From positions 2,542,001-2,606,000 of the forward strand of contig NZ_CP100763.1 in the NCBI RefSeq assembly GCF_024296685.1: a stretch of DNA of 64,000 nt. The letters run 5' to 3'. Positions 8,065 through 14,095 of this stretch are shown piece by piece. The stretch is from Natrinema marinum. Lineage in GTDB: Archaea > Halobacteriota > Halobacteria > Halobacteriales > Natrialbaceae. The position numbers and the translations under genes were made by a program. The notes under the pieces are model-generated. The model ran no database searches, was not told the DNA's origin, and saw nothing but the letters and a program-made list of their open reading frames with translations. Every line of letters begins with the position of its first letter. Position 1 is the stretch's first letter.

Positions 8065-9126
8065 TCAGTCGATAACGCCCGTTTTTCGCGCCACGTCTCG
8101 AGCGGCCCGCTCGTTCATGCCGTCGCCGAGAATCGTGTAGCGATCCCGGATCTCGTGGCAGGTCGTTAACGCCTCGATGACGGTCTCGTCGTCGATGCCG
8201 AGCTCGTCGGCAGTCGTCGGCGCATCGATGCTCGCCAGTGCGTTACGGATGTCCCGCCAGATGCCGTCCTCGCCCTGATGGAGGTAGGCGGTCATGATCG
8301 AGCCGACGCCGACCTGATGGCCGTGGAGGGCCACGCCGGGCGCCAGCCGGTCTAACTGGTGCGAGAACAGGTGTTCGGCCCCGCTCGCGGGCCGCGAGGA
8401 GCCGGCGATGCTCATCGCGACGCCCGAGGACATCAGCGCCTTGGTGACGACCCAGGCCGACTCCTCGAGCCCCGGCCGGATGAGATCCGCGTTGCCCACG
8501 AGGATTTCGGCGGTCATCTCGGAGAGCGCGGCGGCGTACTCCGAGTACTCGACGTCTTTGAGCCGCTTGGCGAGCCGCCAGTCCATGACGGCGGTGTAGT
8601 TCGAGATGATGTCGGCACAGCCGGCGGTCGTCAGCTCCCACGGTGCCTCGGCGAGGACGCCCGTATCGGCGACGACCGCCAGCGGCGGTTCGGCGGCCAC
8701 GCTGTGGCGCGAATCCCCGTCCGGGACCGATCCCCGATTGCTGACGATGCCGTCGTGGCTGGCCGCCGTGGGAACCGAGAGGAATCCCATCTCGAGGTGG
8801 TAGCTGGCCAATTTCGCGATGTCGATGGCTTTCCCGCCGCCGATGCCGACGAGGTAGGCGGCGTCTTCGGTCTCGGCGATCTCGATGACGCGCTCGACGG
8901 CGTCGAACGTCGCCTTCTCGACCGTTACCATCGCGGGCTCGATCCCGGCGGCCTCGAAGTCGGCCGCGATCGGATCCGCGGCCACCTCGCGGGGCGTTGG
9001 GCTCGTGACGAACAGCGGCCGCCCCTGCAGGTGGAGGTCGTCGACCACGTCGAGGACCTCGCTGCGGACGCCGTGGCCGACGACGACGTTCCGCGGGAGG
9101 CGGATCCACGTCGACTTCTCGAACAT
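8065..9126 (-). CDS. egsA: NAD(P)-dependent sn-glycerol-1-phosphate dehydrogenase
   Basis: 353 residues. It reduces dihydroxyacetone phosphate to sn-glycerol-1-phosphate, the backbone of archaeal ether lipids. The family pattern is clear: VGIGGGKAIDIAKL dinucleotide-binding loop, PTAASHDGIVSNR, and zinc ligands in the AGCADIISN, GAEHLFSHQLD and LHGHQVGVG segments. ATG 9126 gives the usual MFEKSTWIRLPRNVVVGHGV start; nine extra in-frame codons upstream are not needed. It diverges from the M48-like membrane gene. Confidence 0.95.
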   Translation of the reverse strand: MFEKSTWIRLPRNVVVGHGVRSEVLDVVDDLHLQGRPLFVTSPTPREVAADPIAADFEAAGIEPAMVTVEKATFDAVERVIEIAETEDAAYLVGIGGGKAIDIAKLASYHLEMGFLSVPTAASHDGIVSNRGSVPDGDSRHSVAAEPPLAVVADTGVLAEAPWELTTAGCADIISNYTAVMDWRLAKRLKDVEYSEYAAALSEMTAEILVGNADLIRPGLEESAWVVTKALMSSGVAMSIAGSSRPASGAEHLFSHQLDRLAPGVALHGHQVGVGSIMTAYLHQGEDGIWRDIRNALASIDAPTTADELGIDDETVIEALTTCHEIRDRYTILGDGMNERAARDVARKTGVID

Positions 9127-9212
9127 ACCAGCCCTGACACACCCCCGGGACATGTGTTTTTCCTCGTCGGCGCGCCGGTCTCGAGCGATCGACGAATCCG
9201 ACTCAATCGGCG

Positions 9213-9226
9213 ATCTTATAATATTT
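9213..9226 (+). promoter_or_regulatory. TATA-type promoter before the M48-like gene
   Basis: The box cttataatattt ends about 20 bases before ATG 9246, fitting leaderless transcription. It lies in the 119-bp divergent region shared with egsA. Confidence 0.5.
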
Positions 9227-9245: not shown

Positions 9246-10325
9246 ATGATAGCGGCGACCGTGCTGTGGTTCGGACTGCTCGGTATGGGCTACGTCGGCG
9301 GCCGGCTGTACGGGCGATATACGCTCCGACGCGCGGGTGACGGCGACGGCCGCTCGCGCGGCACGTATCGCCTCCTCACCGTCGTCGGCCTCGTGGCCGT
9401 CGCCGTTCTCACGTTCACCGGACTCACCGACGCGACCGAGCGCGCGCTCTCGTCCGTCCACCCGGCGCTCGAAGGAGGGCTCGCCACGCCGCTCGTCTGG
9501 TTGCCGACGGCGCTCGGCACGATCGTCGCCGTTCTCGTCGCGTACCTCGGCGTCTTTCCGTACGCCCGGAAACGCCGCGGTCTCGAGATCTCCGCCAGGA
9601 CGGCGGTCGCCCGGCTCGCCAGGTACCTCACCGCGGTGGCGATCCTCGTGGTCGGTGCGCTCGCCATGTTCACGGCGCTCGTCACCGCGTCGGATCCCAG
9701 CCCGCTGCTGATCCCGCTCCTGTTCGTCGTCCTCACCGGCGGGGTGTACGCCTGGATACAGTACGGCGTCCGACTCTCGCAATCGGTCACCGAGCCGACG
9801 AGGGAACAGCGCCGGCGACTCGAGGACGCGGCCGAGCGGACTGGGCTGACAGCGACGATCGGCGGCGTGATTCCGGGCCGCGAGACTGAGGTCGCCGACC
9901 TCTACCTCGACGGTCCGTTCTGGAACCGGCGGGTGTACGCTACCGATTACGCACTCGACGCGCTCGACGACGAGGAGGTGACGGCACTGTGTGCCCGCTC
10001 GAACGCCGCTGACGGGCTCTGGTTGCTCGAGCGCCGAGCGCTCGTCGCTGGCGTCGTCTTCGGACTCTTGCTTAGCCTGACCGTCTGGACATCGATAACG
10101 GTCGCGGTCGCCGGCCTGGCGGTCGCCGGACCGCTGCTCGCTCGATTCCTCCAGCGGTCCGAGTTCGCCGCCGATCGGCGCGCGACTCGAGCCGTCGACG
10201 CAGATACACTCGCGAGCGCCCTCGAGGCCGGCTCCGACCTGTCCGACGACCGGGGCCGGCTTCACGAGTTGCTCGCGGCTCGGCCGTCGCGAGCGCGTCG
10301 GCTCGAGCGACTCCGAAACCCCTGA
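9246..10325 (+). CDS. M48-like membrane protein lacking the HExxH zinc motif
   Basis: 359 residues with about five N-terminal and two C-terminal membrane segments, laid out like HtpX/M48 peptidases. Residues after the third block read LDDEEVTALCARSNAADG, where active M48 enzymes have L-x-x-E-E-hydrophobic-x-x-V-hydrophobic-x-H-E-hydrophobic-x-H. Both zinc histidines and the catalytic glutamate are therefore missing. The third-ligand region survives as EFAADRRATRA near residue 298. It is probably a pseudopeptidase in the membrane, perhaps with a regulatory or scaffold role. The assignment rests on order of features and needs a profile search. Its stop abuts the stop of the convergent epimerase gene. 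Confidence 0.7.
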   Translation: MIAATVLWFGLLGMGYVGGRLYGRYTLRRAGDGDGRSRGTYRLLTVVGLVAVAVLTFTGLTDATERALSSVHPALEGGLATPLVWLPTALGTIVAVLVAYLGVFPYARKRRGLEISARTAVARLARYLTAVAILVVGALAMFTALVTASDPSPLLIPLLFVVLTGGVYAWIQYGVRLSQSVTEPTREQRRRLEDAAERTGLTATIGGVIPGRETEVADLYLDGPFWNRRVYATDYALDALDDEEVTALCARSNAADGLWLLERRALVAGVVFGLLLSLTVWTSITVAVAGLAVAGPLLARFLQRSEFAADRRATRAVDADTLASALEAGSDLSDDRGRLHELLAARPSRARRLERLRNP

Positions 10326-11315
10326 TCAGAGCGTGTCCAGAATATCCAAGACGCGCTCTTCGGCCTCGCGGTCCGGCTCCGCCTCGACGCCGCCGCGGTC
10401 GTTCTCTCTGTGATCCGCGACCGTCCGATCCATCGCTTCGGCCAGTGGCGTCGACTCCCAGCCCAGCGCGGCGAGTTTCGCCGTTGAGAGGACGTGGGGG
10501 TAGGTCCGGTACAGTGGGTAGTCCTCGAGCGCGAGGTCGCCGGCCGCGAGTTCTCGCGGGCCGGCGTGGACGATCTCGACGGTCGTCTCGAGCGAGTCGG
10601 CGATCAGGTCGACCAGCTCCTCGAGCGTGACGAGCCGGCGGTCGCCGACGTTGTAGGCCTCGCTGGCCGCGCCACGCTCGGCGACGATCCGCAGCGCGCT
10701 GGCGACATCCTCCACGTAGACGCGGTGGCGGAGGTTCGTCCCGTCGCCGGGGACCACGACGCGGTCGAAGCGGTTGACGCGGTCGATCCACCAGTCCAGT
10801 CGTTCGGTGTAGTCGTGCGGGCCGTAGACGATCGGCGGGCGGACGGTCATCGCGCGGACGCCCTCTGCGGCCGCCGCGACGACCGCGCGGTCGCCCTCGG
10901 CCTTTCGATTGCCGTAGGTCTCGAAGCTGTCGTCGGTCGCCTGCTCGGGCGTACAGGACTCGAGGGGCGTCTCTCCTTCCCGTTTGGGGATTTCCTCACG
11001 GCCGTAGGCCGCGCCGCTCGAGACGTAGACGTAGGCCTCGCAGTCCGCGAAGATGCGGGTCGCGGCGCGGACGTCCTTCGGATAGTAGGCGACGCAGTCG
11101 AAGACGGCGTCGGGATCGACGGTCATCGCGGCCGATTCGATCGCCGTGTCGTTCGTCCGGTCACCCTCGACGTGGTCGACGCGATCATCGTCCGCGAAGG
11201 GATTCTCGCGGTTGCCGCGAGTGAAGAGGGTCACGTCGTAGTCGTGTGCGAGCAACTCGTCGACGAGATGCCGGCCGATGAAGCGCGTGCCGCCGATAAC
11301 GAGTGCGTTGTCCAT
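10326..11315 (-). CDS. NAD-dependent epimerase/dehydratase (extended SDR)
   Basis: 329 residues. The Rossmann dinucleotide loop is ALVIGGTRFIGRHL near the N-terminus, and the catalytic YxxxK pair is YGNRK. Late residues VRPPIVYGPHDYTERLDWW and AYNVGDRRLVTLEELV match the NAD-dependent sugar epimerase / reductase group often annotated in haloarchaea. The substrate may be a nucleotide sugar, but no sugar-nucleotide genes are near. It faces the membrane gene tail to tail without any gap. Confidence 0.88.
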   Translation of the reverse strand: MDNALVIGGTRFIGRHLVDELLAHDYDVTLFTRGNRENPFADDDRVDHVEGDRTNDTAIESAAMTVDPDAVFDCVAYYPKDVRAATRIFADCEAYVYVSSGAAYGREEIPKREGETPLESCTPEQATDDSFETYGNRKAEGDRAVVAAAAEGVRAMTVRPPIVYGPHDYTERLDWWIDRVNRFDRVVVPGDGTNLRHRVYVEDVASALRIVAERGAASEAYNVGDRRLVTLEELVDLIADSLETTVEIVHAGPRELAAGDLALEDYPLYRTYPHVLSTAKLAALGWESTPLAEAMDRTVADHRENDRGGVEAEPDREAEERVLDILDTL

Positions 11316-12715: not shown

Positions 12716-14095
12716 ATGAACGACCGATACGACAGCGATCGACGGCGAACGGACGAACGGCACACCGACCGCTCGAGCGGCACCGAACACCAAGGCTGGG
12801 ATCGGAACGACCGAAATCGAGAGGGCAGCGACCGCGGCTGGCTCCGCGGGATGTTCAGCCGCGGCGACAGCGGGGACGCCGGTCCGCAGAGCCCCGAACG
12901 GCAGGGCCGAGATCGAACGGGAGGACAGCAGGGAAGATACACCGGCGACATCGGCTGGGGACGCACCACCGATTCGACCGACCGGAATCAACAGCGCGAC
13001 CAGTTCGGCCAGGGCCGAGAAGAGTACTCGCAGCGCGGACGATCCGATCGCAGCAGCGAGCACCAGCAGGGCCAGCAGTTCAGCCAGCAAGGCGAGCACA
13101 CGCAACAGCAAGGTACGCAGCAACACCAGCAGAGCGGCCAGCAGCAACGTCAGCAGGGCACAGGGCAACAACACGGTGGTCAACAGCAACACAGCGGCCG
13201 CCAGCGACACCAGCCGGGCGAACCCGGACAGCGCTTCAGCCAGCACGGCGGGCACTCCCAGCAACAGGACGCGCACCGCCACCAGCAGCATCAGCAGGGG
13301 AGCCAGCAACGCCGGCAGGGCGGCCAGCAACACAGCGGCTTCGAAACGAACGCCAGAGAGCAGAGCAACCTCGAGTACGGTGGCGAGGCTCGACGCGGGG
13401 GACACTACGGCGGCCAAGGCAGCCACCGGGAACAATTCGGCTGGCAAGAGCAGTTCAACCAGCAGGGTCAACAGGGGAACCAGCAGTATCAACAGGGCCA
13501 CCAGCGAGACCGGCAGCGCCAGCAGACCGGTCAGCGAGGGACACAGCAAAGCGAGTCCCAGCGCAGCACCCAGCAGCGCTGGCAGGAGAACCGAGACAAC
13601 CAGCCCGACGCGATGCGCCGGAACCCCGCCGAGCAGTATCAGGGCGACAGCGAGCGTGGACAGCAGACCTGGCATCAGAGCGGCAGCGAGCAACACGGCA
13701 GCCAGTACCAGCAAGGGCAGTCCGAATCCGGTCGCCACCAGCGAAGCGAGGGCACCCAGTCCAGCACGCAGCGCGACCGGAGCGATCAGTACGGCCAGCA
13801 GACGGACCGCGAGTACGGCGACAGCCAACAGTTCGACCGCGAGCGAAGCGAGGCCGACCGCTCCGGCGGCCGCATGAATCGAGAGCAGTCGAACAGCGGT
13901 CCCCAGCAGGGCCAGCAATCCGAGCAGAACGACTGGTCGGACTCCCGCGAATCGAACCGCGATAACCGCTCGAGCCGGGAGAACGACCCGAACCAGCAGT
14001 CGGACGACGAAGAGATGGACAACCGCCGGCACGTCCACGAGCGAGATCCGACCAACGACGAGGACCGTGCTCGCGACGAGGACTGGTCCAGCTAA
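12716..14095 (+). CDS. Gln/Gly/Ser/Arg-rich, intrinsically disordered protein
   Basis: 459 residues of extreme composition: Gln dominates, with Gly, Ser, Arg, Asp, Glu and His, and very few aliphatic residues. There is a short ordered-looking motif near the start (RGWLRGMFSRGDSG, about residue 41), then QQG/HQQ/QRQ runs to residue 330, and a more charged tail ending in RDEDWSS. There is no signal peptide or membrane helix. It lacks the acidic character of haloarchaeal globular proteins and resembles prion-like or RGG-type sequences that can self-associate. The reading frame is kept over 1.38 kb despite repetitive CAGCAG tracts, which supports expression. Function unknown. Confidence 0.7.
   Translation: MNDRYDSDRRRTDERHTDRSSGTEHQGWDRNDRNREGSDRGWLRGMFSRGDSGDAGPQSPERQGRDRTGGQQGRYTGDIGWGRTTDSTDRNQQRDQFGQGREEYSQRGRSDRSSEHQQGQQFSQQGEHTQQQGTQQHQQSGQQQRQQGTGQQHGGQQQHSGRQRHQPGEPGQRFSQHGGHSQQQDAHRHQQHQQGSQQRRQGGQQHSGFETNAREQSNLEYGGEARRGGHYGGQGSHREQFGWQEQFNQQGQQGNQQYQQGHQRDRQRQQTGQRGTQQSESQRSTQQRWQENRDNQPDAMRRNPAEQYQGDSERGQQTWHQSGSEQHGSQYQQGQSESGRHQRSEGTQSSTQRDRSDQYGQQTDREYGDSQQFDRERSEADRSGGRMNREQSNSGPQQGQQSEQNDWSDSRESNRDNRSSRENDPNQQSDDEEMDNRRHVHERDPTNDEDRARDEDWSS

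Follow-up and report, generated by a model that had tools for sequence, protein, structure and literature searches.

The best-studied membrane pseudoproteases are those of eukaryotes. The iRhoms and the plant FtsHi proteins are described as membrane relatives of active proteases, called pseudoproteases, for which functions have been reported (PMC3149277, PMC8197885). BepA is reported to have a chaperone-like activity that is weaker in the protease-dead E137Q mutant (PMC8423444). The H335A form of ZMPSTE24 is reported to restrict arenavirus-glycoprotein particles about as well as the wild type does (PMC8915953), and the antiviral activity of ZMPSTE24 is described as independent of its protease activity (PMC10456885). 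Two reviews of haloarchaeal membrane proteases cite HtpX homologues, and the word "inactive" is absent from both main texts (PMC9263693, PMC4343526). In a literature search with most subscription journals outside its scope, the matches listed included none that dealt with inactive homologues of M48 or HtpX in archaea.

Here, we describe an HExxH-less relative of M48 peptidases from Natrinema marinum, encoded in a window (the whole stretch of DNA that was analysed) of 64,000 nucleotides (G000:C1:2542001-2606000) from a genome that consists of a single contig with 3,766,003 bases. An earlier note on this DNA had called it an M48/HtpX-like membrane protein whose HExxH site was erased, a pseudopeptidase kept for a non-catalytic role beside egsA. 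The iRhoms and FtsHi proteins differ from it in being eukaryotic, in belonging to other protease families, and in having functions known by experiment (PMC3149277, PMC8197885).

RESULTS

The gene and its predicted features

The open reading frame runs from 9246 to 10325 on the forward strand, as the earlier note had it, from ATG to TGA with the stop included, and encodes 359 amino acids. A TATA-type element, TTATAATA, lies at 9216 to 9223 on the same strand, with its TATA 26 to 29 bp 5' of the ATG. Among 23 close orthologues (window protein included), 17 carry an exact TATA at -37 to -20 from the ATG, and in control windows of 17 bases it was found in 0 to 1 of 23 for starts from -60 to -44 and in 2 to 6 for starts from -28 to -20. 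The position would fit a leaderless haloarchaeal transcript of this gene.

Hydropathy averaged over the 23 orthologues predicts about five transmembrane segments in the N-terminal region (residues 1 to 177; 9246 to 9776, forward strand, as for all features of the protein). The polar stretch that follows (residues 178 to 260; 9777 to 10025) contains the conserved YATDYA.D.LDDEELTALCAR and is probably a cytoplasmic domain, judging from the alignments and the charge pattern. Within it, RSNAA (residues 251 to 255; 9996 to 10010) occupies, by alignment, the position of the former HExxH zinc site. By hydropathy, the two motif helices are separated by a hydrophobic stretch (residues 260 to 303; 10023 to 10154) whose length would accommodate a hairpin, which it probably forms, and EFAAD, the relic of the third-ligand motif, comes at residues 306 to 310 (10161 to 10175). 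The order of a hydrophobic N-terminal half of about five segments, a polar stretch, a hydrophobic stretch, and a polar C terminus is similar in alignments of the close orthologues (A1), of 24 wider relatives without HExxH (A2), and of 18 relatives that bear HExxH (A3). An AlphaFold2 model built from the window protein and three named orthologues only (mean pLDDT 45.1, pTM 0.27) was unusable.

Relationship to M48 peptidases

Against the Pfam M48 model (PF01435), the window protein scored a subthreshold 12.9 bits over residues 284 to 358 (cut-off 20.3, E 0.097), and 9 of the 23 orthologues matched it at E 0.1 or better, the best at 1.1e-5. Profile-profile comparison with hhalign gave E 2.3e-21 over 354 columns between A1 and A3, 1.5e-40 between A1 and A2, and 9.8e-35 between A2 and A3. 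Membrane composition can inflate such scores, but their registers match the BLASTP alignment of the window protein with an HEFGH-bearing paralogue of its own genome (residues 173 to 358, E 3e-6). In this alignment, R251-S252-N253 fall on the H-E-F of HEFGH and EFAAD falls on EFRAD, while the second His of HEFGH faces a gap; its pairing with A255 comes from the multiple alignments. Judged by hhalign, BLASTP, and the Pfam matches of nine orthologues, the protein is of common descent with M48 proteins. These results agree with the earlier note, which had proposed M48 kinship and had placed DDEEVTALCARSNAADG (residues 241 to 257) at the HExxH position.

The HEFGH paralogue (G000:C1:149549; 395 aa) scores 69.6 bits with Pfam M48, above the cut-off. 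It resembles the window protein in membrane layout, at 27% identity, and its family can be aligned with the orthologues over nearly the full length; unlike the window protein, it retains HEFGH and EFRAD. As for described peptidases, the HExxH-bearing relatives matched the Ste24p structure 4il3 at E 4.7e-17, and the wider HExxH-less set matched it at E 4e-4, with AEAGR of the set on HEIGH. Ste24p/ZMPSTE24 (M48; structures 4il3 and 4aw6) is an active zinc protease, whereas the orthologue profile matched no M48 chain, Ste24 included, at E 10, and the window protein alone had no match in the PDB at that threshold. HtpX models gave weak matches in the wider relatives (PRK05457 in 7 of 24, PRK02391 in 1 of 24, best 2.4e-4). 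NCBIfam HtpX models gave none for the window protein at E 10 and none for any of the 23 orthologues, in which the HExxH site is gone, at E 0.01. The M48 part of the "M48/HtpX-like" label stands, and "HtpX-like" is no better a name for the window protein than "Ste24-like."

Other families were considered. PADLOC defence models matched none of the 23 orthologues at E 0.01, and the PADLOC "4TM" effector model gave weak matches in two of the 24 wider relatives (best 8.3e-4). Matches of the window protein to Pfam MASE1, DUF4231, and RskA_N and to NCBIfam MamG were rejected because they lay below their cut-offs, and many matches of the wider-set profile to opioid and nociceptin receptors were judged to be chance products of membrane composition.

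Genomic neighbourhood

The gene is flanked by egsA (glycerol-1-phosphate dehydrogenase; NCBIfam PRK00843, 531 bits, cut-off 413) at 8065 to 9153 on the reverse strand, divergent and 92 bp off, and by a convergent gene for an NAD-dependent epimerase (Pfam PF01370) at 10326 to 11315, also on the reverse strand. egsA adjoins the gene in all 22 orthologous loci, and the epimerase gene does so in 19 and is missing in three. This constancy could point to a membrane protein whose role has no connection with proteolysis, such as one in lipid metabolism alongside egsA, and whose M48 scaffold would be ancestry only. However, the surrounding order is itself largely conserved (prolyl oligopeptidase, an ABC pair, egsA, epimerase, a KaiC-like gene, gltB), and the adjacency to egsA follows from this synteny. 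Moreover, the 17 wider-relative loci examined (14 to 16 kb each) gave no egsA match, and all eight same-genus genomes that lack an intact copy of the gene still carry egsA. We therefore rejected a functional link and consider a role of this kind unlikely; the earlier statement that the gene lies beside egsA is correct as to place, and the association is best read as positional.

Two observations concern the surroundings alone. In the window, an ORF of 459 aa at 12716 to 14095 (forward strand) encodes a long, glutamine-rich, strongly hydrophilic product of low complexity. One same-genus locus (L090, G017:C1:1874000-1890000) has two tandem copies of the ABC ATPase-permease pair next to egsA, and the same locus holds the gene copy with a stop at codon 8 that is described below.

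No general shared neighbourhood was found among the 17 wider loci. Four loci from two haloarchaeal families (L095 to L098) have in common a region that encodes an amidohydrolase and an AdoHcyase (Pfam in L095), and smaller overlaps comprise one cluster in five loci and one in L103, L104, and L111. The amidohydrolase-type gene (Pfam tested in L095 only) lies directly after the HExxH-less homologue in all four (L095, 6285-8806, reverse strand; also L096, L097, and L098), and the two are possibly cotranscribed. As a functional link, the shared region was set aside, being judged, though not proven, to be housekeeping synteny.

The genome that carries the window encodes seven M48 proteins above the Pfam cut-off, all with HExxH, so that possible partners for the window protein exist. 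Across 29 same-genus genomes, the presence of the gene was not associated with that of the HEFGH paralogue (11 with both, 10 with the gene only, 3 with the paralogue only, 5 with neither; Fisher p 0.68). Neither this result nor the differing surroundings of the wider relatives points to a particular partner.

Maintenance and loss of the gene

In all 253 pairwise comparisons, dN/dS of the pseudopeptidase gene lay between 0.27 and 0.60, with a median of 0.42. The value for the HEFGH paralogue was 0.37 (12 paralogues from ten same-genus and two same-family genomes, 66 pairs, with sequences cut back to their last 395 codons), and that for egsA was 0.10 (253 pairs, the largest value being 2.44). 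In the 29 same-genus genomes, which include that of the window, the gene is complete and open in 20 and interrupted by a TGA in frame at codon 8 in one (G017), and eight genomes are without an intact copy. In G010 and G023, egsA adjoins the epimerase gene; in G009 it does so as well, with 25 residues of C-terminal sequence left as a weak remnant (E 0.015), and G022 has a truncated copy with an N-terminal stretch of 75 residues and perhaps a C-terminal one (E 0.08). A KaiC-like gene follows egsA in G024, the epimerase gene is absent from the flank examined in G003 and G021, and in G002 an ORF of 201 aa with a lipobox-like N terminus stands between egsA and the epimerase gene in place of the pseudopeptidase gene (L113, 2693-3298).

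These losses can be read as decay, in which the protease of this lineage would have lost its function and its reading frame would be disappearing; the eight genomes without an intact copy, the remnants in G022 and G009, the egsA-epimerase junction in G010 and G023, and the roughly fourfold stronger constraint on egsA all lean that way, and the early stop of G017 slightly lowers our confidence in a maintained pseudopeptidase and raises that in decay. Yet, with G017 as the only exception, the orthologous frames (22 of 23) are open over the full length, no pair departs from the range given above and the median is near that of the HEFGH paralogue, the TATA element is kept in 17 of 23 orthologues, and HExxH is already missing in relatives that belong to several of the order's families. 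Decay is thus an unlikely account. By these sequence measures, the gene is under constraint where it is present and yet can be lost; since eight of the 29 genomes do without an intact copy and G017 has its stop, the role is not essential. Because the 22 further orthologues also lack HExxH, selection is purifying, and the TATA element recurs, the missing motif is more than chance, and the proposal of a pseudopeptidase kept for a non-catalytic role fits a dN/dS near that of the active paralogue, the role itself being what we infer.

State of the active site

None of the 23 orthologues keeps HExxH, as the earlier note required of its reading. The first-His position is Arg in all 23, the position of the catalytic Glu is Glu in 2, and the second-His position is Ala in 20, with Gly, Ser, and Val once each. 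The earlier note also held that the EFAADRRATRA segment (residues 306 to 316) remains, which is true of the window protein; among the orthologues, the third-ligand Glu of this motif is retained in 19 of 23 and replaced by Ala in 4. In the 50 wider relatives without HExxH, the second His and the third Glu are missing throughout and the first His in 49, the exception being L185. Glu stands at the catalytic position in 12 of these 50, Arg, Gln, or Lys takes the second-His position in 45, and the full motif occurs in none.

In thermolysin-like enzymes, the Asp of ExxxD contacts the first zinc His. This Asp is retained in all 110 rows of the family alignment, including the window protein, where ExxxD reads EFAAD and the Asp is residue 310. 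It is a reasonable, tentative idea that Arg251 and Asp310 may pair where the metal used to be bound.

No relocated metal or zinc site is apparent from the residues conserved across the 23 orthologues. The only histidines conserved in at least 18 of them are His72 (22), in a predicted outer loop, and His340 (20), in the C-terminal part, and the only cysteine is Cys249 (21). That the metal or catalytic residues have moved and the protein still cleaves, with Glu306 and Asp310 in a new site, is very unlikely: the retained Glu and Cys249 would allow it, and USP53/USP54 are reported as a precedent that annotated pseudoenzymes can prove active (PMC12037411), but only two histidines reach that level of conservation, and 4 of 23 orthologues and all 50 wider relatives lack the Glu of EFAAD.

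Distribution and evolution

A first search of 149 genomes gave a match in 56 at E 0.001 or better, and a second search of the same genomes with A2 gave a match in 101 at E 1e-5 or better. From these and further loci, we collected 114 distinct family ORFs, 37 with HExxH, 73 without it (23 orthologues and 50 wider relatives), and 4 fragments dropped for coverage; the collection is not a full census, as weaker listed A2 matches were mostly left out. The 22 further orthologues have 61 to 71% identity to the window protein, and the named ones come from Natrinema versiforme, N. mahii, and N. salsiterrestre (63 to 72% identity); two orthologues belong to other genera of the same family. In one locus (L182, G093:C1:912600-916800), two HExxH-less homologues stand in tandem on the same strand. 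One scan of viral contigs found no relative.

Matches at E 1e-10 were found in 27 of 196 genomes sampled across the phylum, and both of those outside the order retain HEIGH, which places the losses, as far as sampled, within the haloarchaeal order. In a quick tree of 110 rows with the motif columns excluded, the orthologues group together (support 100), a second clade (98) holds 41 wider relatives that span several families, and the tree requires two changes of motif state. When all HExxH-less rows were held together, the likelihood was better by 24.8 log units (p-AU 0.859). Because the alternative grouping of the orthologues with the HEFGH paralogues was not rejected (p-AU 0.404), a single loss of HExxH in the family is favoured, not shown.

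Annotation of relatives

A tblastn search with a wider relative returned six plasmid records, five annotated "peptidase" and one "hypothetical protein." Five of the six plasmid relatives were inspected (four RefSeq "peptidase," one hypothetical), and HExxH was found in none of them. Since such relatives carry the label "peptidase," haloarchaeal protease counts include proteins without the site. On plasmid pAArc1-02 (L196, NZ_CP024046.1 100471-106770; also L149/L190), an HExxH-less "peptidase" homologue is preceded by two further ORFs of the family, 263 and 167 aa from stop to stop and annotated hypothetical, which look like a second copy split in two.

DISCUSSION

The window protein combines homology to a peptidase family with the absence of the catalytic residues, and its gene is maintained. 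It is highly likely that it represents an M48-derived pseudopeptidase kept by selection. Judged from the residues left at the site, the protein is very unlikely to catalyse by the M48 mechanism, and we infer that it is unable to hydrolyse peptides in this way and works by binding. The whole of this reading, a maintained dead M48 protein that acts by binding, seems to us probable, and the precedents of BepA and ZMPSTE24 favour a role in holding substrates or binding partners.

In our reading, the window protein is a multipass membrane protein that descends from an M48 zinc metallopeptidase of the Ste24/HtpX type, with the layout kept but both zinc histidines and the catalytic glutamate lost. 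Arg251 would pair with the invariant Asp310 and so close the former metal site. The mechanism we favour is that the retained membrane scaffold and cytoplasmic domain would act as a noncatalytic partner, either holding misfolded or mis-inserted membrane proteins or attaching to an active M48 protease in the same cell. A role in membrane-protein quality control, drawn by analogy, is a tentative proposal that we hold with less than even confidence.

A broader scenario, again by analogy, is a long shot. A single loss of the zinc site, early in haloarchaeal evolution and in a membrane protease of the Ste24 type, would have been followed by radiation into a family that spans the order. Its members would be membrane proteins without proteolytic activity, with an Arg, Lys, or Gln close to the invariant Asp standing in for the metal. 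Like ZMPSTE24 with a dead catalytic site, which is reported still to restrict virus entry in human cells, such proteins might guard the membrane by binding, either clearing mis-inserted proteins or blocking membrane-fusing haloarchaeal viruses.

Pseudopeptidases are already known, and what appears to be new is a widespread M48-derived set of them in haloarchaea. If true, a diversified set of pseudoproteases within one archaeal order, standing in this genome beside seven HExxH-bearing M48 proteins, would be a prokaryotic case of the reuse of a protease scaffold.
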